Assembly (NCBI GenBank): GCA_914767715.1
Contig: OU612072.1
Span: 22,508,001 to 22,572,000 of the forward strand
Length of the DNA stretch: 64,000 bases
Origin: Membranipora membranacea
Lineage: Eukaryota; Bryozoa; Gymnolaemata; Cheilostomatida; Membraniporidae
Direction of reading: 5' to 3'
Shown: one piece after another, positions 22,802 through 63,467 of the stretch
How positions within the stretch are numbered: the first letter of the stretch is position 1
Layout of the letters: the number at the start of each line of letters is the position of its first letter
Notes under the pieces: model-generated
Told to the model about the DNA's origin: nothing
Database searches by the model: none
The model's input: only the letters and a program-made list of their open reading frames with translations
Program-made: the position numbers and the translations under genes

Positions 22802-22953
22802 TCAATCCTGAAGCCTAGACAATTCAGTGTTTTGCAGCATTAAATTCATTGTTGCATTGGACTGGAGGGAATAAACACACCTTTCATAGTACTCACCTGA
22901 TCCGGCACTTTGAGACTTCTGCACACCTTCTGAATTCATTGACATCTCATGGT
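22802..22953 (-). CDS. Roco-caspase gene: exon after the catalytic cysteine
   Basis: The acceptor TTTTTTGTAG lies at 22,954. The first two bases complete a GAC codon with the preceding exon, giving ...DCCSGDHEMSMNSEG. The residue after SG is therefore Asp, as in caspase QACRGD. Two ends are possible. A strong donor (TCAG|GTGAGT) at 22,897/22,896 would give a 57-bp exon in phase 1, leading to a p10 exon not found in the window. Alternatively, reading through gives 32 more residues ending at TGA 22,804-22,802, with an AATAAA signal at 22,696-22,691. In that case the protein would end after a linker and lack p10. The Ser/Gly-rich linker resembles an inter-subunit region. The exon start is firm; the end is open. 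Confidence 0.7.
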
Positions 22954-23516
22954 CTACAAAAAAGCAAAATTCAACCATGAACACGAGTAAGCTGAACAGG
23001 TTCTGAAGCATTTTTGGGAGTTATTGTTGCTATAACCTTAGGAGTAAATCATGGCAACAAGCATAGCATTTAAGCACAATAAAAATTAGAAGTCACTAAG
23101 GCCTACAATAGAGCCCTATAATAATTTAACCTCTGGATTAATAGCTTAATTTTAAAATCGTTGCAAGTTTTCTTTATTGTGCCTCAACAAACTACTGTTA
23201 TCGAAGTAATGTGTGTATTTATTGGTTATTTGACAGTATAGTTTTGTTGTTGCGGGGTTGCTCAAAAGTCAAAACTACTAATTTTGACTTATCCAGCTAC
23301 TCTTCAACAAGCAACAATACCCACTAATAACTAACCACTAACCACTAACAAACCCATAACTGCAATGCAGTCTAAAGCAGTACTCTCAGCTGACGTCAGA
23401 ATAAACACTTCATTATGAATTATTACCTGTCACTGTTAGACGCCAAGAGATCTCTACAAAAGGCATTTAACACAATCGGAAGACAATAATCAAACTGCAC
23501 CTTCTTTGAGACCTAC

Positions 23517-23772
23517 CCCCAGAGCAGCAGTCAAATATGACCATCTTTGGTTTCCTTCTCATAGCTGGGAAGTTCTGAGGTGACAGCATACGCAGCACAT
23601 CAACTCTCCTGACATGCACACCCTCTTCATCATCATCACTATGACATTGGATTGTACCATAATCACCATGCCCATTGATTACAAGAGCGAACATTCCAAG
23701 ACTTGAATGTACTGACGTTTTTGTCTTCTTATCTTGACAATGTATCTCTTTCCATATAGCTTCAAATAATTC
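23517..23772 (-). CDS. Roco-caspase gene: catalytic p20 exon (His and Cys)
   Basis: This 256-bp exon starts after TTCCTGGCAG (phase 0, GAATTATTTGAAGC) and ends TCTGGGG|GTAGGT (phase 1). It encodes ELFEAIWKEIH, a lysine-rich turn, then MFALVINGHGDYG. The last matches the caspase SHGxxG block with the catalytic His. KPKMVIFDCCSG follows, matching KPKLFFIQACRG with the catalytic Cys. The first two and fourth residues of QACRG are replaced (D, C and S), making the site look like the metacaspase DCCHSG. The fold order (helix, His loop, VRRVDVLRML helix, Cys strand) is that of a C14 peptidase. An Asp/Glu-rich insert (HSDDDEEG) lies between the two motifs. Activity is plausible but unproven because p10 is not seen. 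Confidence 0.85.
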
Positions 23773-24347
23773 CTGCCAGGAATGAAAGCAGCGATATAAC
23801 TTAAATTATTTTTGTGAATAAGACGCCTAGCAATCACCAAAAATATTTTCAAACTCAGTAAATTATTTGAATTGTTCGGCTCAATGACTCGAGTATATTT
23901 GAGTATCACAATTACTGATAGAAAGGCCAATATTTAAACATCATTAATCACCTTTCTCAAAATTCAGCCGGTTTAACATTGCTGTCATGTCTTGCATGAT
24001 AACACGACAGAAGGGGAGAAGAGGATTGCGATTGTTATTTTTAACAGTTGAGTTTGGCCTAATCCACCAACTGTGCTTCAAATATGGACAATCAAAACTA
24101 CTAGCTGCAGATTCCTCTTCTGATTGCTAACATGTAACCATGATGATGGTAATTGCATCAAGTTGCTCGACTCCATTCATTAGATATAGAGGAGTAGGTG
24201 ATGTGGCGGTTCTCATTAACACTTAAAACAACTGCATAATGCTATCTGGCAGATAATAAATGAAACTTAGAAGAGACAGAAGATGAAACCAAACGCCGAA
24301 TGCTAGCCTTTTTGTGTCAAAGGTGAGCATGTATAGATGAAAATTAC

Positions 24348-24503
24348 CTTTGGACTCCAGGATTTATGTGCGCTGTAGCCACTTATGATGAAACCAAAGT
24401 TTTCAAACATCTCTCTTAGGTTATCATAGTCATGTTTTGCTCCCTCCAGTCCTGAGTCAATGATGATCAATACTCTTCCTCTTATGGGGGTCATCTCATA
24501 CAA
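24348..24503 (-). CDS. Roco-caspase gene: start of the caspase-like p20
   Basis: The exon is 156 bp, phase 0-0, with acceptor GGATTTTAG before TTGTATGAG and donor CCAAAG|GTAATT. It encodes LYEMTPIRGRVLIIIDSG, then DYDNLREMFENFGFII. This is the first strand and helix of a caspase p20 (consensus Y.M....RG.ALIINN...DxxNLxxxFxxLGF). The segment between, GLEGAKH, is where classical caspases have R-x-GT with the S1-pocket arginine. No arginine is present there, so cleavage after aspartate is doubtful. That reading rests on an eye alignment. Confidence 0.8.
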
Positions 24504-24651
24504 CTAAAATCCAAACATGATTAATCAGAATACCATAACCGTCTCTTTTTGAATTGAATTTTCATCAGATCCGAGTACTTTTCAAAATAGTGTTACTACG
24601 AGCAAACTTCTGTATAACACATTCATCATCATTTCCCAGTTAAGTTCAAAC

Positions 24652-24815
24652 CTTTGAAATCCTTTCCACAGGATATGGAGATTGCTGGGGTACTGGTTTA
24701 TCGCTTATTCTTGCATGATCTTTAACAAGAAGCTTGATCTGTTTCATGACATCTACTGTGTTCTCCTGGATATATTTGCCAAGGGCAGCCTTGTGCTTTG
24801 CCAAATCTTTTCGAC
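24652..24815 (-). CDS. Roco-caspase gene: helical linker exon
   Basis: The 164-bp exon has acceptor ACAATTTCAAG at 24,816 and donor CAAAG|GTTTGA at 24,652. The donor is weak but gives phase 0, which the next exon needs. The first two bases join a T from the Roc-COR exon to make Cys, giving GPCRKDLAKHKAALGKY. The rest is amphipathic and helical (IQENTVDVMKQIKLLVKDH), then a Pro-rich tail (DKPVPQQSPYPVERISK) just ahead of the caspase fold. It resembles a short pro-domain or hinge rather than a recognisable death-fold domain. Confidence 0.7.
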
Positions 24816-25019
24816 CTTGAAATTGTAATAATGTCTAAAAGTTGTAGTAACCATTAATACTCTTTGATGAATCTTAAACTTAGGTGATCAGCAACCAACC
24901 AATATCCAATATACTCACAATCATAATAGTCTCAAAATTCTACCCAAAATATTATTTGGGATAATCCTATCGATTTCCTTGCAAATGGAACATACAAAGT
25001 TTGAGAAAATACCACATAC

Positions 25020-26896
25020 ATGGTCCTCTAAGCAGAACAGGAATGCTATCTCCGCAGCATTGAACTGAATTTTCTTGCAAAGATGTGTCAGTAGCAGTGA
25101 TGACTGTAGGGTCAAGACAGGCTGGGTTTGACCGTTTCAGGAACAGGCAGTGGGGACAGGGGATGACTATGTCAGTCTTAGTTGCATGCGATGATGAGGA
25201 AAGATGGTCATTAAGTCCATTGAGCAGTTTGATGAAGCTGTCCCACATTTCACTTACACTAGAGGCATCGCCCTCAACTCGTATGATCACTCTCTGGGAA
25301 TCAAACTCATGAATGAAGTGAACATGAGTGTCATCATTTATCTTCCCTGATGCGCCATTCTTAAACTTGAATGATGAGCCTGATAACGTATCAGAAGGGA
25401 AACTGTCTACAACCGTCAACATCATCTGATGAAATGCATATTCAGGTAATTTCATTCCGTAGAAGCTGTAGGAGGCCTTTAGGCAAATATCAGCCTTTGT
25501 ATTCGGGAAGGAATAGTTTTGCATGAAGTAAGGGACAAGGAAACACTCAGGAGAATCCCCGACAGCTTTCTGACTGTATATCAGCTTGTACTTTTCCAGT
25601 AATTCTACTGCAATACTCAGAGGTATTTCTGATTTCTCGATCAGCTTCTCGAGATCATCTCTTCGGAGAACACCCTTAGGCAAGTAAACAGCTTCAACCG
25701 AACCTGGAGGTACACGAGCGTCTCCTTCTACTGGTTTATGATTGAATATTGAATTGATGAGACAAGCAACTCTCGGAATGTTGTGAAACACTATATCATC
25801 AAGTCCAGGCCCTTTGTACGTAAGAATTCGCCCTGATCGTCGCATGAAATTAAGTATAGCATGAAACTGTCGCTTGCTATCCCTCACTTTATCTTCCAGT
25901 TCTTTGCTGACCTCTAGGTACGACTCTTCTCGCCTCGTCTCGATTTTGTTCACCTCCTTCCCCCATTCCGCTGGAATGGAGCAGTTAGTTTTTCTCAGAC
26001 TTGCTTTGAGTTTGTCCTGTAGTGGCTTCAAAGTATCAGATGACGCATCCTTATCTGCAAATCCAACTGAGCATATAAATGGCTGACTGTCTTTTTTACT
26101 CCACTTTGCTATAGCGAGATTTTTGACATTGCTGTTTTCCTCGATAAGATCTCTGGTAAGGGCTTTTAGGGTTTTGATCAACACCTTTTCTAATCGCTCG
26201 ATTTTTTCCTGTTCAAACTTGTCTTTATGAGTGAGTACCAGAAGTGGTTCTTGGATATCAGCCTTCACCATATAAGAAAACCAATCAAAGGCGACAAATC
26301 TGGCAGCTTCTCTCTTCCCGCGCCTTTCACTCACCCTGTCAAACTCTTCAATGTTGATTACTACCAGGGGGACACAACTTTGTTGAAAAGTAAGTTGGTA
26401 AGCATGTTGATAGACGGCATCACCACCAAAATCAATCAACCGAATCGTTGTCTGCTGGCCTGTTCCGGTGTCAAGAGAAAGTTCCTGAAACTCGAAGACC
26501 TTTGTCTTTGCTGTTTTCGCATCCGCATATGTGAATTCGTTTTTCATGGCGCTCACAAGTGTGGATTTCCCAACTTCTTTCCTGCCAATTACGACAACCG
26601 TTGCCAAGTTGATGGAAAGTTCACCATGAATCAAATCACTGAAGTATTGTATAACATCTTGTAGACCTGATAGGCAGACTGAAAGAGGAGGAAGAACTAA
26701 ACGTCTGCAGCCCTTGCAATCAAGATTCTGCAGAGAAGACAGAATGTTGGATATATTTGGGTTTATGGTCAGAAGACATTGATTGTTTGAGAGGTCCAGG
26801 TTACGAAGACATTTGAGGTTACCAATGAAGGCTGGCATGTGCTCGATCTCATTCCCGCTTATTTGCAGTACGACAAGGTCTTCCATACCACCAATC
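25020..26896 (-). CDS. Roco-caspase gene: last LRRs, Roc GTPase and COR exon
   Basis: One 1,877-bp exon, with acceptor AAATTACAG at 26,897 and donor GGACCAT|GTATGT at 25,020. Counting from the first Met (26,886), residues 1-70 are LRRs (LRNLDLSNNQCLL). Residues 90-300 form a Roc domain: P-loop GRKEVGKST at 101-109, G3 DFGG at 152-155 and G4 THKD at 219-222. Residues about 310-560 are COR (winged-helix part DDIVFHNIPRV, and VPYFMQNY). A C-terminal tail has CPHC at 577-580 and a second CC at 609-610, a possible metal site seen in several Roco proteins. All GTP-binding motifs look intact. LRR-Roc-COR order is that of the Roco family (LRRK, MFHAS1-like). There is no kinase here; a caspase-like domain follows instead. 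This exon is the firmest call in the window. Confidence 0.95.
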
Positions 26897-27245
26897 CTGT
26901 AATTTAAAAAGATAACAAAATAAAATGAATGAGGTATATTTGATGGCAGACCTGAAAGAGAAAGCTAGAAAGTTGGTTGAGTTTGAGCACATGAACTAGC
27001 ACTATTCTGTGCCAAGTAGCATTCTTTGCTTTTTCAATGGAAAACTCGGAACTCAGAATGAGTATTTTCTTTGAGCTGATGCGAGTTGATGTTATTTGCA
27101 ACATAACACAGATTTTATTTACACAGATATCAGTTTTAATTTGTACGAAATCAAACTGGCCAAAACATTCATTGTTCTCCAATTATGCAATGCACATGCT
27201 TGATTTCATTCCCTCATATGTTTAATTTATCAAGGTATATACTTC

Positions 27246-35772: not shown

Positions 35773-35815
35773 CTTAAAGTATCTAGGTACTATAATAGTA
35801 CCTAGATACTTTAAG
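35773..35815. repeat. 43-bp perfect palindrome
   Basis: CTTAAAGTATCTAGGTACTAT and its exact reverse complement are separated by one A. Allowing one mismatch, pairing extends about six bases further on each side (CGATCG / CTATCG). With a one-base loop it would form a cruciform rather than a hairpin transcript. Confidence 0.9.
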
Positions 35816-38484: not shown

Positions 38485-38631
38485 CCTGAAGGTAACTCGA
38501 CCAGAAGACAATCACTCAAATCCAGTTCCTCTAGTCTTGTAAGTCCTGATAGCGTATCACTCAACTGATCATCTGTACTCAGATTGTTTTCACTGACATT
38601 CAGCCTCTTCAGTGATACCATCTTTGAAATG
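38485..38631 (-). CDS. Roco-caspase gene: LRR exon 8 (most 3' of the array)
   Basis: 147 bp, phase 2-2, with acceptor CCTTGCAG and donor CTTCAGG|GTATG. It encodes ISKMVSLKRLNVSENNLST, then DDQLSDTLSGLTRLEELDLS and DCLLVELPSG. That is two LRR strands (LKRLNVSENNL, LEELDLSDCLL) joined by a helix. It is the diverged member: compared with the 47.6- and 51.9-kb copies it differs mainly at KEL-TVRNN versus KRL-NVSEN and in the second strand. Its last two bases join the G of the Roc exon to give Arg. Confidence 0.85.
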
Positions 38632-41240: not shown

Positions 41241-43500
41241 TATGTTCCGACCAGATTTGCAATTAATTTTCTGATGAACTAGTTGAACACACCATAAATT
41301 GTGGAATTTGAGTCAAAAAAGGTAAACTCAAACACCACCAAAGGTAATATCACAACCCCACAAGCCTGTTGCTCATAACATAGACTCAACGATCAATGTT
41401 GCATTTCTAATTATTACACAATGTAAAGTTTTATCTATGCAGGTGAGAATCAATGCCGCGCTGACAGTGGTCAACAACACAAAGTCACTGTTTATGAAAC
41501 ACACTACCGTAACGATATATGACACATATACAGAGGCGATATTCCAGCAATTTATGCTGCATTTCATATCAAATTGCTATGGCCTGAAAACCTTCTATGT
41601 AGCCAACATCAAGTCTGTAATCGTCTACGCCTGCACTGCATGTATAATCTGCTATGAGAAACCGATAAACAAGATTAGAGAGGCCTCATTCACTTCAATT
41701 TTTTTAATCATAATTAATCTGTGATTATCTCTTTTCCTAAGAGAGATACAGCTATATAGTTTTTTTCATCATAAAATTCAGCTATGTCTGGGATAGCTGA
41801 ATTTAATCTGTCTTTGCAAATTGTTCCGATCATCACTGTACAGGCAGCTGATTAGCATGCTGCTGCTGGGATTTACAACGGATTATCTCTGGCTCAATTA
41901 AACGTATCAAAAACGCCCTTGATTGTACTATGGGATAGATCATATCAAACAATTTCCTGAAGGCTTTTTATCCTAGCTGTTTTAAAAGTGGTCTTCATTC
42001 CTGATCCTTGCTGATTTTTTCAAATAATCCATTTAATCAAAGTTGTATGGAGCTTCGAGCTTTATTAAGGAAGTTTATGTTTTTGTGTGTATAATGAAAA
42101 AAACAGAAGCAATATCGAAAAACTAGTTGCCAAGATATTCACATGTAAAGACCATTTTTGGAAAAGTGCACATGATCGCGAATATGTATGTAATCGTGCC
42201 AACACAATTTATGTTTTTTTTGGACTTTATTGGCATAAATTTCATTCAATGAGAATCTTGAAAGTTTTAAATGTTTGAAGGTTTTAAAAAGTAAATATCA
42301 CACAGTTTCTTCATGCATAATCCAACTTTGAAATAGGTATGATATAGATGCTTCCACTTAATTTATATGACCAAGCTGTCAGGTTTACCATTTTCGTTGC
42401 TAATCAGGAGGTTCAATTGTGTTTTGTGTTATGGTTGTAATTTGTTGGTTTGTGTGTTGATTTAGGTAAATTTTGATTAATGAATAATATTTGTTTGATT
42501 TGTCTTCAGAATAAAATAATGGTCCTGGATCCTATGGTTCTGTGGTCAGTTAATGGTACTCGCTCAGTTAGACTCAGTGGCTGACAATATTTATCTTGGG
42601 ATATGAGACTATAGATGATTCTAACAATTAACCAACAAGACCTCAGTGGTAAGCAGCACGACTAGTGTACAATGTGCAAAAGTAACACTGCTGAGCACTG
42701 GTTTCAATTTGGTTTGGTTGTCAAGTATTTTGACTTGTTTCTACTTTGATTCATAAAATTGTACAGCATTTTGGTTTCAGAAAATTGGTGAAACAGTCCC
42801 ACGCTGTGTTTCACTATAAGGTGGTATTTAAAAACTAGTTTTTCTCATTTCATGACTGATTCTTCTGTGACTCAGCCTCAATTTTTCTGTGCCGTGAGTA
42901 GCTATGTGAACCGTTCTCCCGAAGTGTAGGCCTCAGATATGAGCTCCTGTATCGTCTATGAAATAAAAGTGCACTTTAATCGTCTCTGTGTGTGCTGTCC
43001 TATTCTGCAATGTCCTCTAACTGAAGAGGGCTGTGTGTCAGGCTCCTTGTAGCCAATCAATCATAATCTTCAATGCAACTGTCGGATAAATACTGTCCTT
43101 TCTTGAAGGTGCTGTCGTATTCTGGTATCTTCACTGTACTGTGATATACTACTATCGTCTCTATACTGTCATATTCTGTACTGTCATCATCTGGTCCTTG
43201 GGGCTGGCTCCTTGGTTTGCTGTCTGTGTGCCTCTGCCTTATAAAGGTGGTGTTCATTGTCATGTAAGCTTATGTCAGCATTGCAATATTCTCTTTCCAT
43301 TGTCTTACTTTCCTCCCTGAACAGATTTTTAGGCAATTTGTCATCGCCCACTTATCTTCTCTTTTTGTGTTTGAATATTTCTTCTCCTTAATTATGTAAA
43401 TTTTGTCCTTTGAGTCCTGTGTCCTGTAGAGGATTTTGAGGAGGTTACCCTAAGGCGGCGATACCCGCCACTGCAACCACGCACATTGCCTATTTATACT
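41241..43500. other. Intron sequence, no gene recognised
   Basis: Unique-looking sequence inside the ~9-kb intron between LRR exons 7 and 8. Open frames at 41,437-41,724 (+) and 43,057-43,263 (-) have no protein-like family signal and no supporting splice pattern. TACTGTCATATTCTG-type short repeats occur at about 43,100-43,200. Confidence 0.5.
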
Positions 43501-43880
43501 GAGTACGCCGACTCTCTAAAACGAGTACGCCGACTGTATCTGCCTGGAAATATATCGAGTACGACGACTCTATCTGAGGGGGAAGGTAACGAGTACGACG
43601 ACTCTATCTGATGGGGAAGGTAACGAGTACAACGACTCTATCTGAGGGGGAAGGTAACGAGTACGACGACTCTATCTGAGGAGGGGTAACGAGTATGACG
43701 ACTCTATCTGAGGGGGAAGGTAACGAGTACGACAACTCTATCTGATGGTGAAGGTAACGAGTACAACGACTCTATCTGAGGGGGAAGGTAACGAGTACGA
43801 CGACTCTATCTGAGGAGGGGTAACGAGTATGACGACTCTATCTGAGGGGGAAGGTAACGAGTACGACGACTCTATCTGGG
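43501..43880. repeat. ~34-bp minisatellite with a higher-order pattern
   Basis: About eleven units of GAGTACGACGACTCTATCTG plus AGGGGGAAGGTAAC. There are 34-bp units and 29-bp variants (AGGAGGGGTAAC spacer). Units with the marker variants CAACG, TATG and the short spacer recur in the same order twice (about 43,622-43,745 and 43,749-43,877), indicating duplication of a multi-unit block. The first two units are diverged (GCCGACTCTCTAAAAC), as expected at an array edge. Confidence 0.9.
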
Positions 43881-47635: not shown

Positions 47636-47782
47636 CCTGAAGGTAACTTGACCAGAAGACAATGACTCATATCCAGTTTCTCTAGTCTTGTAAGTCCTGA
47701 TAGCGTATCACTCAACTGATCATCTGTACTCAGATTGTTGTTTCTGACAGTCAGCTCCTTCAGTGATACCATCTTTGAAATG
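47636..47782 (-). CDS. Roco-caspase gene: LRR exon 7
   Basis: 147 bp, phase 2-2, with acceptor CCTTGCAG and donor CTTCAGG|GTAGG. It encodes ISKMVSLKELTVRNNNLST, then DDQLSDTLSGLTRLEKLDMS and HCLLVKLPSG. It is identical to the 51,891-52,037 exon, as expected from the recent 4.25-kb duplication. The frame and both splice sites are intact, so both copies could be used. Confidence 0.85.
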
Positions 47783-48909: not shown

Positions 48910-50252
48910 GGATGGCTAGGCCAACCGATTACCAAATCATTGACTTTTTTAATCATGTTCAAAATCTTAGCCCAGGATCTGTGAATACTGTTATTAAAAA
49001 ATTTAGCGCCAGATCCTTTACAGTTTTTCACAATCAACAAAATGCCTTTGTTTGAAGTACTGCTAGCTCAACTCAATGTTCATTTTTCATGTATTGTCAT
49101 TTCAGAGACATGGTTTTCACAAAATGAATTTTTAGAGAAGTTTTCACTAAATGGCTATAAAATGTTTTGTAGATCTAGATTTCATGGCGCTGGCGGTTGA
49201 ATTGCTATGTATGTATCAGAGGAGTTTGAGGCTAGTGTGACGGATGTTCGGTTGTCTGGAGCGGAGGCTATGGTGGTTCGTATGGTTTATTCTGGCCGCC
49301 CAGTCTGCTCTGTGCTGGCAGTCTATCGCACCCCTTCGATGGGGCCGGCGATTTTCCTGGAGGACTGGGAGGCGCTGCTGCCTTCGCTCCCTATCAACTA
49401 TATAGTTGTTGGTGATCTTAATTTTGACTTAAATTCCTCAAATGAAACTGATAACTTTACCCTAGACTATATGAGAATTATGAGCATGAATGGCTTCTTT
49501 AATATTATTGAGTCGCCAACACGGTGCCGCCGCACGAAAGACAGCATTTTGGATCATAATCTGGTCAACAACACCAGTAATGAAATTTTGTCATGTACAA
49601 TTAAAACTGACATGATAGCTGACCAATTTCCAGTTATTAGCTCCATTGCTTTTCCAAACACATGGAAGCAAAACCAAGCTAACCAAATTTTAATTACTAA
49701 GCTTGATCCAAACACACTTTACAAGAAAGTTAATGACCCCGAAGTATGACAGGGAGTGCTCAATAGCAGTAATCCAAATGACGCCTTTGAAATTTTTACA
49801 AATTCTCTACAGAAATTAGTAGCTGAGTCATCAACAACTAAAACTAAAAAGCTTGTTAAAAGCCTTGGATGACGCTCAAAATCTTCAAATTGATTCAACA
49901 GCGAGAAAAACTTGCCCGAAAATTAAAGGATGAGCCTTTTAACAGTAAACTTCTTCAAAAATATTCTAAGATAAAAAATCTGATATGTGATATCATCAAA
50001 GATGTAAAAAATAGAATTTTACAACACTGAACTTGAAAATGTAAAATCGAATAAAATGAGAAATGGGCTTTTGTAAATCGGCTTTTAAACAGAAAAGCAG
50101 ACAAGTCTTCATCATTAAGCTGTATTGAAACAAATGGACAAAGTTACACATCTGCAATTGAAATTGCTGAATGTTTTAAGGAATTTTTTACGAGTGTAGG
50201 TCCTGGCATGGCAGCTAAATTACCTGTATGTCAAGCTGACCCATTATCAAAC
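48910..50252 (+). pseudogene. CR1/Jockey-type LINE, 5' part with endonuclease (copy 1)
   Basis: The plus-strand endonuclease reads ISETWFSQNEF (about 49,100), YKMFCRSRFHGAGG, a TGA stop at 49,198-49,200, then IAMYVSEEFEA, VLAVYRTPS, IVVGDLNFDL and SPTRCRRTKDSILDH up to 49,746. These are the SETW, GG.AIY, VYR.P, GD.N.D and S.LDH blocks of a LINE endonuclease. Further stops and shifts follow (49,747-50,244). The copy is cut off by the hAT-like MITE and then by the duplication junction, so it has no reverse transcriptase. GC content of 49,230-49,400 is visibly higher than its surroundings. Confidence 0.8.
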
Positions 50253-50582
50253 CAGTGGCGTATATTAGCACTCACGGCCCACGGATTTCCGTGAGTGGCT
50301 AAATAGCTCAGTATGTAGAGCGTCCGCCTTATAATCACTGATAATAAGATTGTTGTTGGTTTGAATCCCATCACGGACAGTTTTTTTCAAATGGGTGCTT
50401 TATAACTGGAGCATTTTTACCGTAATCTTCTACTGCTATTGAGTTGTTTTCTGAAAGTACCCAACAGCTCAGTGAGCTATTGAAATACCTCTCTGCTTGC
50501 ACTATTTCGCTACCGATATGCAAAAATTTCCGTGCTGGGAGGGCGCTTAAGCGCCCCTCTCACACCCTCCCCGCCACGGGGC
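50253..50582 (+). mobile_element. hAT-like MITE with tRNA-like core, truncated copy
   Basis: The left end CAGTGGCGTATATT follows the 8-mer TATCAAAC (50,245-50,252). A 9-bp hairpin (CACTCACGG / CCGTGAGTG) and a tRNA-like A-box stretch (AAATAGCTCAGTATGTAGAGC) follow. The copy ends at the tandem-duplication junction about 50,581. It keeps a ~31-bp segment (GTGCTGGGAGGGCGCTTAAG...) that the 54.5-kb copy has lost. Confidence 0.8.
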
Positions 50583-51890
50583 CTCACCTCTAGGATGCAT
50601 TCTAGTTTACTAGGATGTATCACACTCTCAGTACGAGGACTCTGGGCAACTTGCGTCCCTCTTTAGGGGCAGCCCACCCTATGTTTTGTCACAAACAGGA
50701 CAAACTGTATGACAATGGACAATGTTTCTACAGTTCTTGAGTTCAATTCAATCAATGACTTATATATATATATATATATACTTTTATTGTCAGCAACAAT
50801 TCATTTTTTCAAATGTTTTTCATGATGTGACATGTTTTTTCTTCATGATGTATCATGATTTAGGTCAACGGCGATGATTTTGGATTTCAGGAGGAAGGCA
50901 AACAACACAACCATAATTATATGTTTAATGCAGCTTTTTTTGAATGAATTAAAAACAGGAACACATCATCCCGAGTTAAACTCCAGATCACATTTTAAAG
51001 GATAATGATTTCAACGCTTGCTGCTCAGGTGTTAATCTTACACCTGTCAAATTTTGCAAACTTTGATGAGTATACTATGTGATCAAGTCAACCCAGGGAT
51101 TAAATTTTGATCTCTTGGTGTGAAAGGTTTAATACTACTGTTCCATCCATTCTGTCGTCACCGAAGTCTAAATATATTTTGACAAATCGTTGATTTTGTT
51201 TGCACCGCGAAGATACTCATGTTAGTATCGCCTAACCCTGATTTTCTGACAACATTTACAACTTTTTGATGGGGTCGTAATTTATATTTTGTATTTTTAC
51301 TGTGCTGGACGATACTATAGTATAGCTTCTGAACGGAGGCAATTTCCATTGATTTAATATCAGCAATTCTACTGCCAGCCAGTTATGATATTACAAAACT
51401 GAATGGCAGCTGCCCAACTCATTAGGGATAAATTTACCCTTACGATGGTAAACACTCCGATATCTAATATATCGACTCCACATTATGGCGCCGTTTTCGG
51501 CATTTTCAAATTCCATGAATGTTTTGAAGGTAATATATTTTTTTTAATTTAAACACATTCCATCGATCTCTGGAAGTGATGTAACCATTTTCTTGACAGT
51601 GGGCTAAACATTGAGTTTGCCAAATTGAGATAGATTCCAAATAAAATATAACAGAGATTGATGTGAGATGGTTCTTGAAAACAATTTCCATTGAGAACTG
51701 AAAGGCATTCAGATTGCATTACATTGTGGTAACCAATGTTTACCTTTCGGATGGATTCTGACACTTCTCACTTGTGGGTGAGCACAATTCCAAAAATTTG
51801 AAAATAAAAAAAACACATGCATACATACATGCGATATAGTTTTCGATGTGTTATTTCAATAGCATAATCCAACAAACAAACTTAACCTAC

Positions 51891-52037
51891 CCTGAAGGTA
51901 ACTTGACCAGAAGACAATGACTCATATCCAGTTTCTCTAGTCTTGTAAGTCCTGATAGCGTATCACTCAACTGATCATCTGTACTCAGATTGTTGTTTCT
52001 GACAGTCAGCTCCTTCAGTGATACCATCTTTGAAATG
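51891..52037 (-). CDS. Roco-caspase gene: LRR exon 6
   Basis: 147 bp, phase 2-2, with the same sequence and splice sites as exon 7 (47,636-47,782). It encodes LKELTVRNNNL and LEKLDMSHCLL as its two LRR strands. It differs from the 56-59 kb exons at most exposed strand positions while keeping the DDQL..TLS.L helix. Confidence 0.85.
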
Positions 52038-52139
52038 CTGCAAGGTACCAACAAAACATTGAAATTTGTTCATAACAGAGAGTGGTGAAATCTGAATTCG
52101 ACATTGATAATAAGATGTTGAAGGTTGCAGTCGATTGCA

Positions 52140-52490
52140 TGCCTCTGAAATGTCCAATGCGCCACTTTTACATTATGGTTGTCAAGCTCTGATGTGAAAT
52201 CATCAAGCTGTTTGATCGAAGCGTCGACTGTCCCAATGTGCGTCTTGTAAGCAAACTGTGATGGCTCTATTACCTCTGTCAATTTAGATCTCATTATTTT
52301 ATTATAACCTCATCAGTAAGCTTGTCAAGGTGAAACAATATTGACACTGACCAATGGTCTTTGTGTGTGGGAGGGCTACCTTGGAGCTGAGTGGGCGCTC
52401 GGAGTGACAGGCTGAACTCACACAGCTATCTACAATTGTTGTCTGTTTGCCAGTTTAACCATTGAGTACAGTATTTAACCCTTTACTGGA
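52140..52490 (-). pseudogene. LINE RT fragment (minus), unit 2
   Basis: Duplicate of 47,885-48,235, with the same KLTEVIEPSQFAYKTH stretch. Confidence 0.65.
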
Positions 52491-53164
52491 CTGTAGCAAC
52501 CAGCCCACAGATCGCTGTCGTTTATGACTCGTTGATTAATATGCTATAGCAGAGAGGAGTTTAGAAACACAAAATCTCAGGACGTTGCCTCTACCATCTG
52601 TTCAAATAATTGATTCTGATATGCATTTGGAGCCTCATAATCTCGGAGAAATCCCATCTCATGTGTAAGTTGGATGTTGAGAAGTCAACATCATCTGAAG
52701 ACTTCCAGACATGGATCTCAGTGGAGGGTGAAGAAGATGTTTGCTTGCCTCTCAATAACATATTGAATTTGAGGCAATCTACATCGGAATTCCCAGTTAA
52801 ATGCAAGAGAGCCCAAATCCGACCAATCCATAGGATTGCTTGCCCCACCAAACACAAAGACTATCAGTTAGTGTCAATATAGTTTCACCTTGGAACCTCT
52901 CTACCTGGGATTCTCTCCTGGGTAGGAGATCAAGCGAGCTATCAAGTGAAGGGAAAAGGCAAAACTTCTCAAGACGGGCAAACTGCATAAAACTCAATCT
53001 AGTTACAAATTTAATCATAGTCATGGACTGGGGTAAGTTTGGGAGCATCCAATGAAAAAGTCATAAAGCTTGATAAAATATCTACCAGAGGAAATCAACT
53101 TAAGTCATCAGTGACTATGCTAAATGAGTGAAACAAATTAGCACAGAGTAACAACACCAAAACA

Positions 53165-55980
53165 GGATGGCTAGGCCAACCGATTACCAAATCATTGACT
53201 TTTTTAATCATGTTCAAAATCTTAGCCCAGGATCTGTGAATACTGTTATTAAAAAATTTAGCACCAGATCCTTTACAGTTTTTCACAATCAACAAAATGC
53301 CTTTGTTTGAAGTACTGCTAGCTCAACTCAATGTTCATTTTTCATGTATTGTCATTTCAGAGACTTGGTTTTCACAAAATGAATTTTTAGAGAAGTTTTC
53401 ACTATATGGCTATAAAATGTTTTGTAGATCTAGATTTCATGGCGCTGGCGGTTGAATTGCTATGTATGTATCAGAGGAGTTTGAGGCTAGTGTGACGGAT
53501 GTTCGGTTGTCTGGAGCGGAGGCTATGGTGGTTCGTATGGTTTATTCTGGCAGCCCAGTCTGCTCTGTGCTGGCAGTCTATCGCACCCCTTCGATGGGGC
53601 CGGCGATTTTCCTGGAGGACTGGGAGGCGCTGCTGCCTTCGCTCCCTATCAACTATATAGTTGTTGGTGATCTTAATTTTGACTTAAATCCCTCAAATGA
53701 AACTGATAACTTTACCCTAGACTATATGAGAATTATGAGCATGAATGGCTTCTTTAATATTATTGAGTCGCCAACACGGTGCCGCCGCACGAAAGACAGC
53801 ATTTTGGATCATAATCTGGTCAACAACACCAGTAATGAAATTTTGTCATGTACAATTAAAACTGACATGATAGCTGACCAATTTCCAGTTATTAGCTCCA
53901 TTGCTTTTCCAAACACATGGAAGCAAAACCAAGCTAACCAAATTTTAATTACTAAGCTTGATCCAAACACACTTTACAAGAAAGTTAATGACCCCGAAGT
54001 ATGACAGGGAGTGCTCAATAGCAGTAATCCAAATGACGCCTTTGAAATTTTTACAAATTCTCTACAGAAATTAGTAGCTGAGTCATCAACAACTAAAACT
54101 AAAAAGCTTGTTAAAAGCCTTGGATGACGCTCAAAATCTTCAAATTGATTCAACAGCGAGAAAAACTTGCCCGAAAATTAAAGGATGAGCCTTTTAACAG
54201 TAAACTTCTTCAAAAATATTCTAAGATAAAAAATCTGATATGTAATATCATCAAAGATGTAAAAAATAGAATTTTACAATACTGAACTTGAAAATGTAAA
54301 ATCGAATAAAATGAGAAATGGGCTTTTGTAAATCGGCTTTTAAACAGAAAAGCAGACAAGTCTTCATCATTAAGCTGTATTGAAACAAATGGACAAAGTT
54401 ACACATCTGCAATTGAAATTGCTGAATGTTTTAAGGAATTTTTTACGAGTGTAGGTCCTGGCATGGCAGCTAAATTACCTGTATGTCAAGCTGACCCATT
54501 ATCAAACCAGTGGCGTATATTAGCACTCACGGCCCACGGATTTCCGTGAGTGGCTAAATAGCTCAGTATGTAGAGCGTCCGCCTTATAATCACTGATAAT
54601 AAGATTGTTGTTGGTTTGAATCCCATCACGGACCGTTTTTTTTCAAATGGGTGCTTTATAACTGGAGAATTTTTACCGTAATCTTCTACTGCTATTGAGT
54701 TGTTTTCTGAAAGTACCCAACAGCTCAGTGAGCTATTGAAATACCTCTCTGCTTGCACTATTTTGCTACCGATATGCAAAAATTTCCCACACCCTCCCCG
54801 CCACGCCTACGGCGTGTGGATCGGGCTGCGCCCGATTATTATGCTCATCTCTGAAAAGTCAGTGAGTGAAAATTTTTAGAATATACGCCCCTGTATCAAA
54901 CTTATCAAAATACGACAGAAGTAACAATTTTGACTTCTTAGAAATTACAAACGACATTACAGAGAGTGTCATAAATAATTCCTCTGCAAAAATAGCAGAT
55001 TGGTACGTTGGGATTTCCATGAAAATCATTCAAGAAAATAAAAATGCTATCAGCCCAATCTTGACCCACATGATCAATTTTATTGTTCGAACATCAGAAT
55101 TTCCAGATAGCCAGAAAATTTGCCAGATTACGACCACTGCATAAAAAAGGTGATAAATTTGACTGTAACAACTATCGGCCGATATCGATATTAACTGCAA
55201 TATCCAAAGTTGCAGAAAAAGTATTGGCTATCCAACTTAGATTCTATTTGGAAAATTCTAATATTTTAATTGACAGCCGGTTTGGATTCACTGAAAAACG
55301 GAACACAAATTCTGCTATATCTAGACTAATGGAACACCTGTACGACAGTTTTAATGACAGTAAAATTACATAAGGAATATTTTGAGACTTCAGCAAGGCT
55401 TTTGATACCATCAACCATGATATTTTAATCAAAAAATTGCCTTTTTATAATTTTACAAATGATGCATGTGACTTGCTGAAATCTTATTTAGAAAACAAAA
55501 AATAATTTGTCAAAATCAACGATTATTCCAGTACAATGAAAACGGTCGATATAGGAGTTCCTCAGGGATGTGTATCAAGTCCAATTTTATTTTTAATATT
55601 TATCAATGACTTTGTAATCATCTATGCCAATCTTTAAATATATTCTCTTTGCCGACAACACAAATATATTTTCCAATGATCCTGAAATTTTCAAATCAAA
55701 TGTTCGTAAAATTGAACAATGATGCTTGAGTAATACGTTGATTTTAAACTATACAAAAACATTTCAGGTAATTTTTAAATCCACAAAATAAGCACATTTT
55801 AGATCCTGAACAGTACCAAATTGAACTTGGTAATCAGGCTTTAGAGACAAAAAGTAGCACCAAATTTCTCGGCATTCACATTTGTCTTACATAGTCAAAT
55901 AAGGGGCTTTGGCTGTCTCGACAACAAAAATACATAAAACAGGTGTTTACAAAAAAATTAAGGTTGTAATGTTTTCTTTT
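53165..55980 (+). pseudogene. CR1/Jockey-type LINE with EN and RT, split by a MITE (copy 2)
   Basis: The endonuclease half (53,165-54,499) duplicates copy 1, including the shared TGA at 53,453-53,455. After the MITE, the RT half continues: LRPLHKKGDKFDCNNYRPIS (about 55,135), FGFTEKRNTNSAISRL, FSKAFDTINHDIL (about 55,390), GVPQGCVSSPILFLIFINDF (motif B, about 55,555) and LFADNTNIFSNDP (motif C, where the second Asp of FADD is Asn). KFLGIHICLT follows at about 55,860. In-frame stops (for example before GIF and inside the NKK-FVK stretch) and shifts show that it is dead. Block order and FDTINHDIL favour the CR1/L2/Jockey superfamily. Confidence 0.85.
54508..54893 (+). mobile_element. hAT-like MITE with a tRNA-like core
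   Basis: Terminal inverted repeats CAGTGGCGTATATT and (inward from the right) CAGGGGCGTATATTCT are flanked by an exact 8-bp duplication, TATCAAAC (54,500-54,507 and 54,894-54,901). CAG-ending short TIRs plus 8-bp duplications are hallmarks of hAT elements. At 386 bp it has no transposase. The left interior carries AAATAGCTCAGTATGTAGAGC and GTTTGAATCCCA, ordered like Pol III A and B boxes. The bracketing 7-mers TCCGTGA and TCACGGA pair perfectly, like an acceptor stem. It interrupts the LINE between endonuclease and RT. Confidence 0.88.
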
Positions 55981-56502: not shown

Positions 56503-56649
56503 CTGTCAGGTATCTTAGTCAGCTCACAGTCGCTCAGGTCCAGTTTCTCCAGATTAGTAAGTGCTGACAATGTCTGACCCAGCTGATCATCTCTACTTAG
56601 ATTGTTATTGCATAAGTTTAGGTTCTTCAGCGAGTTCATCTTAGCAAAG
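56503..56649 (-). CDS. Roco-caspase gene: LRR exon 5
   Basis: 147 bp, phase 2-2, with acceptor TTTTCTCCAG and donor CTGACAG|GTAATG. It encodes FAKMNSLKNLNLCNNNLSR, then DDQLGQTLSALTNLEKLDLS and DCELTKIPDR. It differs from exons 2 and 4 (57.6 and 58.9 kb) chiefly at strand positions: LKNLNLCNN versus LKDLKLYNN, and LSDCEL versus LSRCRL. Confidence 0.88.
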
Positions 56650-56706
56650 CTGGAGAAAAGAAAATATGATTTCCACATTATTCCCTGTTTTATACAATAA
56701 TGCAAA

Positions 56707-57559: not shown

Positions 57560-57706
57560 CTGTCAGGTATCTTAGTCAGCCTACATCTGCTCAGGTCCAG
57601 TTTCTCCAGATTAGTGAGTGCTGACAATGTCTGACCCAGCTGATCATCTCTACTTAGATTGTTATTGTATAATTTTAGGTCCTTCAGCGATGTCATCTTA
57701 GCAAAG
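57560..57706 (-). CDS. Roco-caspase gene: LRR exon 4
   Basis: 147 bp, phase 2-2. It encodes FAKMTSLKDLKLYNNNLSR, then DDQLGQTLSALTNLEKLDLS and RCRLTKIPDR. It is identical at every base to the exon at 58,863-59,009 in the next duplication unit. Acceptor TTTTCTCCAG and donor CTGACAG|GTAATG are intact. Confidence 0.88.
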
Positions 57707-57869
57707 CTGGAGAAAAGAAAATATGATTTCCACATTATTCCCTGTTTTATACAATAAATTTTCGGATAGCCCAGAGTCACTCTGATTTCTTCGCCTCACA
57801 AGGTCTTCCTATAATGCAGTATGAAAAAGATGAAAATAGACTGAGGTTTAGGCCAATGGGTGTCATTAC

Positions 57870-58016
57870 CTGTCAGGTATCTTAGTCAGCTTACATCTGC
57901 TCAGGATCAGTTTCTCCAGAATAATTAGTGCTGACAATGTCTGACCCAGCTGATCATCACTACTTAGATTGTTATAGTCTAAGTTTAGGTCCTTCAGCGA
58001 TGTCATCTTTGCGATG
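57870..58016 (-). CDS. Roco-caspase gene: LRR exon 3
   Basis: 147 bp, phase 2-2, with acceptor TTTGTCTGCAG. It encodes IAKMTSLKDLNLDYNNLSS, then DDQLGQTLSALIILEKLILS and RCKLTKIPDR. It is the counterpart of 59,173-59,319. The two exons differ at only nine bases, seven of them inside a 15-base stretch that changes DLNLDYN to ELDLQGN. All four changed residues there are exposed positions of the LRR beta-strand. Confidence 0.88.
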
Positions 58017-58862: not shown

Positions 58863-59009
58863 CTGTCAGGTATCTTAGTCAGCCTACATCTGCTCAGGTC
58901 CAGTTTCTCCAGATTAGTGAGTGCTGACAATGTCTGACCCAGCTGATCATCTCTACTTAGATTGTTATTGTATAATTTTAGGTCCTTCAGCGATGTCATC
59001 TTAGCAAAG
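58863..59009 (-). CDS. Roco-caspase gene: LRR exon 2
   Basis: 147 bp, phase 2-2, base-identical to 57,560-57,706. Intact splice sites and frame. Its identity with exon 4 dates the 1,303-bp duplication as recent, or indicates ongoing conversion. Confidence 0.88.
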
Positions 59010-59172
59010 CTGGAGAAAAGAAAATATGATTTCCACATTATTCCCTGTTTTATACAATAAATTTTCGGATAGCCCAGAGTCACTCTGATTTCTTCGCCTC
59101 ACAAGGTCTTCCTATAATGCAGTATGAAAAAGATGAAAATAGACTGAGGTTTAGGCCAATGGGTGTCATTAC

Positions 59173-59319
59173 CTGTCAGGTATCTTAGTCAGCTCACATC
59201 TGCTCAGGATCAGTTTCTCCAGAATAATTAGTGCTGACAATGTCTGACTCAGCTGATCATCACTACTTAGATTGTTACCCTGTAAGTCCAGCTCCTTCAG
59301 CGATGTCATCTTTGCGATG
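59173..59319 (-). CDS. Roco-caspase gene: LRR exon 1 of the 147-bp array
   Basis: 147 bp, phase 2-2, with acceptor TTTGTCTGCAG and donor CTGACAG|GTAATG. It encodes IAKMTSLKELDLQGNNLSS, then DDQLSQTLSALIILEKLILS and RCELTKIPDR. The strand motif LKELDLQGNNL is a textbook LRR, and the second strand is LEKLILSRCEL. See 57,870-58,016 for the clustered differences. Confidence 0.88.
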
Positions 59320-61975
59320 CTGCAGACAAAGAAATATAATCTTCACATTATTCCCAGTTTTATACAATTATTTTTCGGATAGCCCAGAGTTACTCTGGTT
59401 TCTTTGTCTCACAGGAACTCCCTAAAATGTAGTGTATTCCTAAATCAAGTTTGATCCATTTTTCCCTTGTATTCAGTTTGCACCCATAATATTTCACAAG
59501 GTATGATGATTTTCTCTTAGGATTAATTTTCAATTGTCAGACAATTAGACACATGACTAGTTCTCGAAATAAGAGAACATGTGGAATCTTTTGACAGTTT
59601 TAAGTGAAGAGACAACTCCCAATCCATTTGACACCGACATACATTTCAACTTGCTGCATCCAGGGAGGGTGGCACCCTCCCTGCTGCATCAAGGTTGATC
59701 ATTTTTCCCTTGTTTTAGGTCAGCTTATTTAATTTGCCACACACTGGCTTATTTTAGTCAAAATTGTAAACATGCTGGAATTCAATGTATTTAGGTTTGT
59801 AGGGGTTTTCAAGCATGGTGAGCAAGAATATGAAGGTTGTTTATGGAATCAATTGCCTGCTGCCGAGCTATGGCAGCATTTGGCATGAGATCAAGAAAAG
59901 CTCAAATACTTAGCAAACAGACGAAAACACAAGTCATGGGGTAAGAAACCCTCAGAAAACTGAGTAATGCATTGCAAATTGTCTTAATTTACCCGCTGAC
60001 TACTGACGGCAGCATTTGACGTGACATCATGAGAAACTCAAATACATCACAAACAGACAAATACCCCAGTAATGAGGTGAAGACCTCCCAGGGAACAGAA
60101 TACAGCGTTGAAAATTGTCGTAACTGATAGTATGGAATAAATAAAGTACATTTTGATATATTTATTGTTTTATTTCATTCATATTTAACTTTTTCAAATA
60201 CACAAATTAAGTAATTGTCTCATGTCAGCCGTTCACCATCTGATCCTCACATAGACTTAATAATAAACCTAGACAGGTCACGATATACAGCTGAAGTGAG
60301 GCACTTAATTGTGGGGCTACGCAACGTCATTGGAATGTGTAGAAGCAATGATGCTATCATTGATTTATTGTCCATAATCCAGGTTTTTTGCTGATAACTC
60401 TCGGATTTTTAATTTGAAAATTGCTAATTAGGCTACTCCTATTGATGATTGTATCGCATACCCATTCGTGTATGCAAAACAATGATCAAGTACATAAACT
60501 GACTCTTCATTCAATAAAAATTCTAACAATGACACTGGAAAAATAAAAATGGGAATTTAAGACTTTGGTAAAGATAAAAAATAGTAGTATCGTCAGGGTG
60601 ACGGGCCAAATAGGCAAATGTAACTGTAAGAAGATTCTGGTTGGTTGATTTGCAAATATATCAGCACCACTGTACGAATCTCTAGATCAAGCATGATCCA
60701 ATTTGCCTGCATTTAGGCTTTGAGGTGCAGGCAAAAGGGATCATGAACTTTCGTCCTATTCGTTGTAGTTGTCCTATGCTATGTGGACAGTTGGTAGACA
60801 CTTGAATTTGTTTGGCATTGCAGCATTTGAAAGGCATCTTTTGTATGGAACCAAGTATGAGGACTTCAATTCTGGAATTTGTTTAGCAAGGAGCTGAGAA
60901 ATTTTAGAAAATGTCCATATTTAGACCAAACTATAACTATATAGAGTTCAGAGTACAAAGATCACATGCAGGATTAAAAAATCAGTGATGTGCAGCCGGA
61001 TGCGTTTGAAAACATAGGCAATTGAATATGGATTTATACCACTAAGAAAACGCCACAAATAAATCGAGACAAATTTATTTGTTGAATTTTAACGTTTTTC
61101 ATTGTCCATTGCACCTGGAGTTGTCCAACTACCATTTTAAAAAAGGCAATTTCTTGTTCTTTTTTTATCTAAATTATCAAATAACTTAATCTTTGCTAAC
61201 AGATTCTTACATGTATACTTTCAAATACAACTGTGAACATCCTGAATTATAACCAGTGCATATATTGTGTGTACTGAGGGAATATTTTCTATGCATATGA
61301 TATAAATCTAGAATTAGTGATCACCATAAGATCGCACAGAAAGTCTGTTTGCTTATAAATTAAACTTCTCCTGTTAATGTGAGTCAGGTGCAGAAGGCTC
61401 AAACTATGGAACAGCAATGTATCAATACTGCTTCTACCTGATGTACATGGTGATGTTAGTGAGCTGTAATGACAGGAGTTATCACCGTTTTAAAAATCAA
61501 TCTATGATCATTTTTTAATATCTCACTATTTATTATAGATCAATTTCACATAATAATCAGCTTGAATACAAATACATAATCACCCTAACATACCTCATTA
61601 TATGTGATGGTACAATGTAAATTTTGAATAATTATCAAAACACAAAACACAGGACTATCACTTACCTTACTGAGGCCTGACTGGCGTATAGTAATACAAT
61701 TAAGTTGGCCAATAATCTATACCATTCAGATTATCTTAAATTGTCATAATTATTGTAGCAAGTTATGCCATTAGCTTTATAGGCTCAGTTTATAATTTTA
61801 CTGATATTGTTATATACAACATTAAGACAACGTAAATGGCCCACACAGAATATGTACCATCGTTAGTTTAATAGGAGGTTACAGATGGTCTGTGTTATAT
61901 AATATTTATAGTAATTCGTATATGATGTGCCGACATGGTAATCTTACATCCTGCTTATATTGATGATATATTTAC
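59320..61975. other. Intron sequence
   Basis: A ~2.7-kb intron between the first LRR exon and the 147-bp array. It has a GGGAGGGTGGCACCCTCCC hairpin at about 59,666-59,684. Repeats related to 45.9 and 56.35 kb (ACTCCCAAT.CATTTGACA..GACATACAT) also occur. No further exon seen. Confidence 0.55.
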
Positions 61976-62116
61976 CTGTCGGGCATCTTAGTCAGATTAC
62001 AGTCATACAGATTCAGAGATACCAGATCTGCAGTTAGCGTGGATAGACACTGATTCAGCTCATCACTTCCACTCTTGTGAACCCACAGATGCCTCAGTGA
62101 TGTCATCTCTGATAAT
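61976..62116 (-). CDS. Roco-caspase gene: first LRR exon, 141 bp
   Basis: Acceptor GTATGTTATAG and donor CCGACAG|GTAAATA, phase 2-2 like the array exons but 6 bp shorter. It encodes LSEMTSLRHLWVHKSG, then SDELNQCLSTLTADLVSLNL and YDCNLTKMPDR. It has the same two-strand layout as the 147-bp exons (SLRHLWV, LVSLNLYDCNL) but is clearly older. It is the likely founder type of the array. Confidence 0.85.
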
Positions 62117-62364
62117 CTATAACATACAAATACGGATATACATACTTCAAGTATGTCAATCGCATTAGAGCCTACACTATAATCTCACATCAATTTTTCT
62201 ACCCTTGGAGAATGGTGACTAACATGGTTTGATCAAACTCTGCATGCAAACTTGGTACTGATATTAACAGTAAAGTCAGCATTATTCTGAAGGGGGAATA
62301 TGTGAGAAATTATTTTGGATCTATAAAATTAAAATCAGTTTGATAAAAATCTGAGCTCACTAAC

Positions 62365-62620
62365 CTCAGGCTTTTAAGGCTATTTTCTTGCATATCATGC
62401 AGCAACAGATATTTCACTGATTTAGTTAGCCTCTCTGATAACTCTGCAGGTGCGTCATCTATAAATAATAAAGCTATCTGACCAGCTGAAGCTGTCTCTC
62501 TCTCCAGCTCTACTAGAGTCAGCTCTCTATCGCTGAATAGTAATCGCCCCAAGGTTTGTCCCCGTACATCAGGATCATCCCAGTTACTGTCACCCTGCTT
62601 CTCCCAAGCTACCCTGTATC
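62365..62620 (-). CDS. Roco-caspase gene: N-terminal exon
   Basis: The 256-bp exon has acceptor CTGATTATTACAG at 62,621 and donor AGCCTGAG|GTTAGT, entering in phase 1 and leaving in phase 2. It encodes YRVAWEKQGDSNWDDPD, then a leucine-rich helical segment (LGRLLFSDRELTLVELERE), an IALLFIDDAP strand, and a first LRR-like run (LKSLRL) completed by the next exon. I do not recognise a named domain before the LRRs. It may be an LRR cap or a short divergent adaptor. The join downstream gives R-L-S-E-M in frame. Confidence 0.8.
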
Positions 62621-63375
62621 CTGTAATAATCAGAAGCAAAATAATAAAATGGTCATGAATGAACCTTTGAAATAAAGGGAATATTATTATTATGTTTTAA
62701 GTGAAGATTCTCAACATTCATTATCTAAATGTTGTAAAAATTTTGAAATCTGGAACAAATACTACATGCATTATACACACATGGCATCAGCGAATGATTC
62801 CATCCCACAAAGTATAGTTATATTATTTGCAGAAGAGATTATTCTTGTGAAAATAGTTTGCAATGAGCAACGCAATTTACTACCAAAATTGATGTTCAAT
62901 TTGGAGTTGTGTACTCTTGTTGTATCAATAGTCAACCGCAAACTCCCTCTTAAAAAAAAGATTTTGGCTGTTAGCCTATTTTTGCAATAAGCAGGAGTGA
63001 AGGTTGAAATTAAGACCAAGACTGTGTGCACTGTTTTTTGCCGATATCCTCCCAGTATGATCTCATATCAATAATATGATGGTTCATAGCATCACAGTGA
63101 AGCTCTTCATAGTGTGGTTGAAGGGAATTACTTGTTAGATCGTAATGTTGCTGATGCAGTCACACATCCTCGAGATTCTAGTTGTTGTGGAACTGGTATA
63201 CAGTAGATGAAACCTCAGTCCGTAGACTGTCAAAAAAACTAGGTCAGTACCCTAAACTTTTTCGGACTTCGAACCAACTAATCAGCGAAAGCAATGAACA
63301 TTACGGACACCTTATGAGGCACAATTTGATATGCTGTATTCACCCTTTAAATGCTGAATCAATCTCAGAACTCAC

Positions 63376-63467
63376 TTTTGTCTGTGCTAAGATTATCCTC
63401 TTCTCTGCCTTGCTCCATGATTGAAAGCTGCAAGTTGTGGGATTCACAGGACAGCTTTGGCAGCAAT
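63376..63467 (-). CDS. Roco-caspase gene: first visible exon with candidate start
   Basis: The acceptor CTTTAACTTCAG lies at 63,468, and the donor GACAAAA|GTGAGT ends the exon in phase 1, matching the next exon (A+GA = Arg). The frame reads LLPKLSCESHNLQLSIMEQG, then REEDNLSTDK. ATG at 63,418-63,416 (MEQGREEDN) is the only visible candidate start. The frame is open upstream of it to the acceptor, so translation may begin in an exon beyond the window. Without transcript data the start is uncertain. Confidence 0.6.

Follow-up and report, generated by a model that had tools for sequence, protein, structure and literature searches.

The minus strand of a 64,000-nucleotide stretch of chromosome 8 (C8) of the bryozoan Membranipora membranacea (positions 22,508,001 to 22,572,000; hereafter the window) carries a series of exons that encode leucine-rich repeats (LRRs), a Roc GTPase domain, a COR region and a caspase-like protease. 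From 63,418 down to 6,357, 19 exons join in a single frame of 4,410 nucleotides (1,470 codons) that contains no stop, and in the joined frame LRRs are followed by Roc, a weakly matched COR, a linker and then a whole caspase domain with p20 and p10 subunits. We put at roughly 80% the probability that the locus is a single gene, one of a family of about 100 Roc-COR paralogs, whose product runs to 1,470 residues or more and combines an LRR sensor, a Roc/COR GTPase switch, a linker and a caspase-fold protease.

Architecture of the chromosome 8 gene

The best candidate start is an ATG at 63,418 in exon E1 (63376..63418), which has a GT donor, runs from phase 0 to phase 1 and is in phase with E2; an earlier note, made from the letters of the window, had drawn the feature from 63,467. 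Exon E2 (62365..62620), the N-terminal region, is bounded by AG and GT sites in phase, and its open reading frame (ORF) has no Pfam match up to E 1. Nine LRR exons follow, each encoding two repeats and all of phase 2-2. The first (61976..62116) is 141 nucleotides long and the other eight are 147 nucleotides long, with exons 2 to 6 at 59173..59319, 58863..59009, 57870..58016, 57560..57706 and 56503..56649, and exons 7 to 9 at 51891..52037, 47636..47782 and 38485..38631. LRR exon 3 is identical to LRR exon 5, and LRR exon 7 to LRR exon 8. All nine are in phase and recognized by Pfam LRR models on the joined protein. A profile of our own built from these exons was set aside because its E-values are circular, and Pfam is used as evidence instead.

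The last LRRs, Roc, COR and a conserved CxHC motif share one long exon (25020..26896). When this exon is searched alone, Pfam reports Roc above the cut-off (1.1e-6), with COR-A (3.3e-4) and LRR_8 (6.9e-4) both below. A Roc match is present in all 12 aligned Roc-COR exons, across which residues G104, G109 and K110, the DFGG at 155-158, and T222, H223 and D225 are invariant. The G1, G3 and G4 motifs of the predicted Roc (P-loop GRKEVGKS, DFGG, THKD) are intact. The COR region is tentatively assigned by its position directly after Roc and by its fit in length, its Pfam matches being weak (COR-A as above, COR-B 0.027). A Roc-COR profile compared with solved structures matched 6hlu, 3dpu, 4wnr and LRRK1/2 amid many LRR proteins; 6hlu and 3dpu are CtRoco according to PMC6337361. 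Past COR, the CxHC (residues 580-583 of the frame 25021-26895 on the minus strand) is invariant in the 12 exons and is accompanied by a near-invariant Cys 613, which together may perhaps form a metal site between switch and protease. Neither a kinase nor a NACHT or NB-ARC domain was matched by Pfam up to E 1 in the protein joined from the first 16 exons, and the GTPase is assigned to Roc.

A linker exon between COR and caspase (24652..24815) is in phase, open in the close duplicate L036 and helical as judged by eye only, and tblastn found no match to it in the other loci compared. The p20 subunit begins at 24348..24503 (RGRVLIII, recognized by Pfam and by the family profile) and continues at 23517..23772, a single ORF that matches Peptidase_C14 at 1e-6 and carries the putative catalytic His (GHGDYG) and Cys (DCCSG). 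It is followed by the inter-subunit linker exon CASP3 (22897..22953), which ends in a GTGAGT donor and whose read-through would meet a stop at 22,802. Up to 22,897, in CASP3, the first 16 exons have GT/AG borders, matching phases and one frame. All of the motifs named in the earlier note (GRKEVGKST, DFGG, THKD, RGRVLIII, NGHGDYG and DCCSGD) lie in phase on the minus strand. The note had also called for a Pfam search of the joined protein, which recovered LRR_4 (3.2e-51), Roc (3.2e-6) and Peptidase_C14 (4.6e-10) in that order; COR appears only below the curated cut-off, as the COR-B match lying between.

The gene was previously taken to end at 22,802, but three further exons, encoding p10, continue it in phase. 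Three-frame Pfam scans of positions 1-22,953 missed p10, their only matches being to a reverse transcriptase and, below threshold, an endonuclease, and without p10 the Peptidase_C14 match covers only positions 18-134 of the 233-position profile, the large subunit. A p20-only truncated caspase was dropped as a candidate after comparison with paralogs found p10 exons within the window. Exons B (8964..9073; YAAWHGKRLGSLFTRTF...) and C (6357..6461; VQEAVRT...LPVTISTFTNERRLFLFPG, the last exon of the model as traced) emerged when the window was compared with 19 paralogs for ORFs lying past the p20 exon; their ORF clusters take in 19 and 18, respectively, of these 20 loci, window included. Exon A (9245..9313), with the first small-subunit strand (DDLIVF), was located by a weight matrix and profiles of paralog exons. 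Since the p10 exons were located through paralogs, the frame-by-frame Pfam negatives were false negatives. With p10 included, the Peptidase_C14 match reaches E 1.7e-24 over profile positions 18-229. The same Pfam family is matched by all nine aligned family members, and the best solved structures for the family caspase profile are CED-3 (1.3e-31), caspase-1 and caspase-3. A predicted caspase fold with both p20 and p10 subunits is present.

A shorter product might also or even mainly be made if the CASP3 donor is left unspliced and the frame runs on to 22,802, the end implied by the coordinates of the earlier note; the resulting protein would have p20 but no p10 and could be a decoy or scaffold. 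The frame is indeed open to that stop, AATAAA occurs at 22,696 and 22,674, and p10 lies 13.6 kb away, beyond a LINE reverse transcriptase (19839..20477, minus strand; RVT_1 1.2e-11) that sits in the p20-p10 intron outside the protein. However, AATAAA is common in AT-rich DNA, CASP3 retains its GTGAGT donor, exons A, B and C are open, in phase and conserved, and exon B lies about 0.6-2.2 kb past p20 in the paralogs. We regard the short product as improbable.

A genome-wide family linking Roc-COR to caspase

The window gene, treated as a single gene in the earlier note, is one among about a hundred related loci: at least 116 distinct Roc or Roc-COR loci, this one included, were found on ten contigs. 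Of 372 candidates for Roc, 150 were scored, giving 148 listed matches; for the Roc-COR exon of this gene, 70 of 268 candidates were scored and 83 matches listed. Loci were merged from 69 of the 148 Roc matches (those in long open frames plus two on C5, of 204 and 233 amino acids) and 70 of the 83 Roc-COR matches, after Roc matches in short exons and 13 second halves of split Roc-COR matches had been dropped. The Peptidase_C14 search scored 140 of 515 candidates and listed 145 matches, and the limit for linkage was set at 9 kb.

Linkage between the two halves is directional. Among the matches listed, 61 of the 116 loci are followed on their own strand, at no more than 9 kb, by a caspase match (63 of the 145 in all), while no locus has a caspase match upstream (0/116) or on the other strand (0/116). 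A smaller count, made from a 74-row list with an 8-kb limit, gave 34 downstream, 0 upstream and 0 antisense. Caspase sequence was present downstream in all 25 loci that were fetched (20 by tblastn and five by Pfam), and in the loci read its first exon begins 0.5-2.6 kb past the Roc-COR match in the same strand and order. One of the 20 (L014, also numbered L034) shows a first p20 exon only; the next C14 match is about 11 kb past its Roc, beyond the DNA that was fetched. The five loci identified by Pfam are all on C3 and carry a divergent caspase with both subunits (Peptidase_C14 1.2e-11 to 3.2e-13, from two ORFs joined by eye). They had been candidates for caspase-free Roco genes, having no tblastn match, yet all five match Pfam Peptidase_C14.

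An automatic splice search, which imposed the phases of the window gene, recovered the full chain of exons c1, c2, A and B in 15 of the 25 paralogs as well as in the window. The ten paralogs without the full chain include edge cuts, five with a different exon layout and some with an unrecognized exon. Across the 16 spliced loci, identity in Roc-COR and identity in caspase are correlated (Mantel r 0.833; none of 5,000 permutations as high).

These observations bear on the possibility that Roco and caspase genes are separate neighbours duplicated together, and that joining their exons creates a protein that exists only on paper. Free-standing caspases may well exist, as 82 of the 145 listed caspase matches have no listed Roc-COR neighbour. 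However, the linked pairs keep the same strand, order and short spacing, their exon phases run on, and the two halves co-diverge. Directional linkage, phase continuity and the 0.5-2.6 kb spacing together argue for one gene, and we consider separate neighbours very unlikely.

A close duplicate, L036, lies 1.8 Mb from the window gene on the opposite strand and has a Roc-COR protein that is 96% identical. In the exons compared, the DNA is 95-98% identical, and the frames and all seven splice dinucleotides compared are kept. A comparison over part of Roc-COR, the linker and the two p20 exons counts 19.5 differences at 390 synonymous sites and 26.5 at 1,425 nonsynonymous sites, a dN/dS of 0.36 (Fisher p 0.0014, on rounded counts). 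This ratio indicates purifying selection between the window gene and its recent duplicate, acting across the junction of Roc-COR and caspase. The earlier proposal of one LRR-Roc-COR-caspase gene is therefore upheld as a prediction, by an order that recurs genome-wide, by directional linkage, by halves that co-diverge and by purifying selection across the junction.

Several findings pull in the other direction. COR falls below the Pfam cut-off here and reaches E <= 1e-3 in only five of the 12 aligned exons, and an AlphaFold2 model of the Roc-COR exon alone, predicted from the single sequence, was set aside at a pLDDT of 33.6. The 13.6-kb intron ahead of p10 is long compared with the paralogs, and the acceptors of the linker exon and exon C are AAG. 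Among the paralogs, an LRR_8 match lies within the Roc-COR exon in six of 12 and upstream LRR matches are seen in L010, the upstream stretches being mostly outside the fetched DNA. The caspase matches without a listed Roc-COR neighbour belong on the same side of the balance.

A tree of 12 Roc-COR exons places the window gene with L033 (C8) and then L015 (C7), with support of 100/99 and 100/100. Because caspases occur on either side of the root, which is only a midpoint, Roc-COR and caspase had probably already fused before the family spread.

Some members and neighbours of this family stand apart. At C1:36.0-36.7 Mb (plus strand), tandem caspase matches have no listed Roc-COR neighbour and could belong to unscored Roco genes or to another fusion. 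Roc-COR lies in single frames of 1,634, 1,745 and 2,462 amino acids at C1:30,534,708 (minus), C11:2,957,873 (plus) and C11:3,048,850 (plus), and these three are perhaps intron-less members. The genome's strongest listed Roc match (115.4 bits), L001 at C13:4,186-4,530, has a TAG inside. If contig numbers follow size, C13 is not one of the eleven chromosomes, and L001 is possibly another type of gene or foreign DNA. Two C9 loci, L017 (near 7,457) and L022 (near 7,451), have a second, weaker p20-like match about 4 kb downstream of the first.

Variation in the LRR exons and the protease pocket

The LRR exons are evidently recent duplicates. LRR exons 7 and 9 differ by ten nonsynonymous and no synonymous changes, whereas the introns on either side of them diverge by 4 to 7%. 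The eight resulting amino-acid changes fall at six of ten exposed beta-strand positions versus two of 38 others (p 4e-4), exposed positions being defined by us from the LxxLxLxxN motif. Among LRR exons 2-6, changes occur at six of ten exposed versus seven of 38 other positions (p 0.016). This distribution suggests diversifying selection at exposed sites, in exons that are few and related. Counting against it, the differing pairs of LRR exons 2-6 have pN/pS values of 1.00-2.41, and some pairs look neutral.

Larger duplications are also visible in this part of the window. A near-identical 4,255-bp tandem repeat at about 46.3-54.5 kb carries LRR exons 7 and 8, with flanks that differ by one or two per 400 positions, and either arose by duplication not long ago or was introduced by the assembly. 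A further copy, with about 92-95% similarity, sits at 37.4-39.5 kb, about 9.15 kb off. Between 56,363 and 59,332, LRR exons are duplicated in tandem blocks of about 1.0-1.3 kb.

In the protease, the catalytic His and Cys are kept, GHG and CCSG aligning with SHG and ACRG of CED-3, and 14 of the 15 spliced paralogs keep both as well. The S1 pocket is different. Its residues, which we take to be R179, Q283 and R341 of caspase-1, mapped here through CED-3, read R/Q/R in the 14 paralogs with an intact dyad and in two aligned loci of the C3 group, but L/D/H in the window copy. Among the 16 spliced loci, only the window copy keeps His and Cys with all three pocket residues changed; its duplicate L036 shares the L and the D, its p10 being outside the DNA fetched. 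The claim that the protein executes by its caspase is thus safer for the paralogs than for the window copy, which has none of the three residues that confer Asp specificity on caspases. Against even a family-wide protease, the remaining spliced paralog, L016, has lost both His and Cys. L016 (C10:22,185,700-22,195,699) is, in its own right, a Roco-caspase paralog that is a natural pseudo-protease.

With its S1 pocket altered, the window copy probably either cuts after some residue that is not Asp or has a modulating role, and the window gene and L036 would together have either an altered substrate preference or a non-proteolytic role. We rate at somewhat short of even the possibility that the pocket changes have ended activity or switched specificity, leaving the window copy as a modulator and not as a caspase that cuts at Asp. 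The contrast with the paralogs' R/Q/R pocket and the partial sharing of the change by L036 favour it; the retained His and Cys and the purifying selection on the coding parts compared speak against it, and the S1 numbering is that of caspase-1, transferred through CED-3.

Elsewhere in the window, LINE pieces occupy introns at 19,839-22,180 (minus; reverse transcriptase) and 49,201-55,373 (plus; endonuclease- and reverse transcriptase-like ORFs recognized by eye only). A weak tRNA match lies at 63,906-63,983 (minus; 30.1 bits, E 0.029) and a tRNA-like stretch, seen by eye, at about 6,150-6,260 (minus), past exon C; both are perhaps tRNA-derived SINEs. A repeat array with mostly 34-bp spacing lies at 43,485-43,854.

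Proposed mechanism and comparison with known systems

Animal caspases are usually assembled by separate adaptor platforms. The predicted bryozoan protein, if the architecture is right, would combine in a single chain the work that inflammasomes and apoptosomes divide among separate sensors, adaptors and caspases. The earlier note had proposed that GTP-dependent dimerization of COR could bring two caspase domains together. For CtRoco, PMC6337361 describes a protein that is mainly a monomer when GTP is bound, a dimer in the nucleotide-free state and in between with GDP. Because its GTP-bound state is the monomer, the proposed dimerization probably has its direction reversed.

If the behaviour of CtRoco holds for the bryozoan protein, the resting form would be a GTP-bound monomer. 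A ligand contacting the variable LRR face could shift the nucleotide state of Roc by promoting GTP hydrolysis or release, after which Roc-COR would associate or reassociate. Two C-terminal caspase domains would then meet, proximity activation would lead to a cut at the inter-subunit linker, and the active caspase would kill or signal in the cell. Every step beyond the architecture, proximity activation included, is our inference.

Innate immunity or allorecognition is the most likely use. About 100 copies, turnover of LRR exons and changes at exposed sites look like recognition diversity, and the family supplies candidate immune or allorecognition receptors in a colonial animal. A role in tissue turnover, such as the degeneration of zooids, would suit the polypide regression of bryozoans and the general part of caspases as death proteases; set against the copy number and the LRR variation, we think such a role doubtful. 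Tentatively, and at close to even odds, we picture a bryozoan repertoire of about 100 one-protein LRR-Roc-COR-caspase receptors that sense, switch and kill, with LRR exon turnover providing diversity of recognition in immunity or between colonies, and a chromosome 8 sublineage, the window gene among them, whose pocket has been retooled away from Asp. With a system of this kind, a protease assay could serve to read out Roco association, and its natural series of intact, pocket-changed and dead members offers material for the evolution of caspase specificity.

The closest known counterparts, as far as the available portions of the papers cited here go, are bacterial conflict proteins with an LRR-AP-GTPase(Roc)-COR arrangement, whose C-terminal effectors number at least 24, caspase being one of them (Kaur et al. 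2021, PMC8195603). They share with the bryozoan family the order LRR, Roc, COR and C-terminal effector, as well as several paralogs per genome. However, the bacterial effector varies among paralogs, whereas caspase was found in all 25 bryozoan loci read. A hidden Markov model trained on nine animal members found caspase in none of the 80 best among 214 confirmed prokaryotic Roc-COR loci; such a model may miss bacterial caspases, so this count is no evidence either way on the bacterial fusion that has been published.

Vertebrate Roco proteins (LRRK1 and LRRK2, MFHAS1, DAPK1; PMC6337361) share the Roc-COR core, with LRRs ahead of it in the LRRKs, but the bryozoan effector is a predicted protease with no kinase match, and the family numbers about 100 copies. 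Sea anemone LRR-Ras/Roc-COR-TIR (PMC5094078) and Aplysia Roc-COR-TIR (PMC9334734) likewise join an animal LRR-GTPase-COR to an immune effector; there the effector is TIR instead of caspase, and for Aplysia two TLR-like genes are named (PMC9334734). Amphioxus LRR-caspase and TNFR-caspase hybrids (PMC2575513) fuse a receptor part directly to caspase, but the wording of the main text of that paper has no match for Roc or GTPase. Brown-algal LRR-ROCO genes (PMC11378527), proposed immune receptors, also place LRRs on separate exons that shuffle and diversify; they are LRR-ROC-COR genes from outside the animals, and the abstract does not mention caspase.

In the open-licence literature searched, no animal Roc-COR-caspase family is reported by title or start of abstract, and the text of the Flustra genome paper has no match for caspase, leucine-rich or immun. 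A sensor, GTPase switch and caspase in what is apparently one molecule is described, in that literature, only for the bacterial conflict proteins. The bryozoan genes may encode an alarm-and-kill system contained in one molecule and serving immunity or self-recognition. Roco conflict receptors were already known; what is new here is that the family is animal, is greatly expanded and has a caspase at each locus read.

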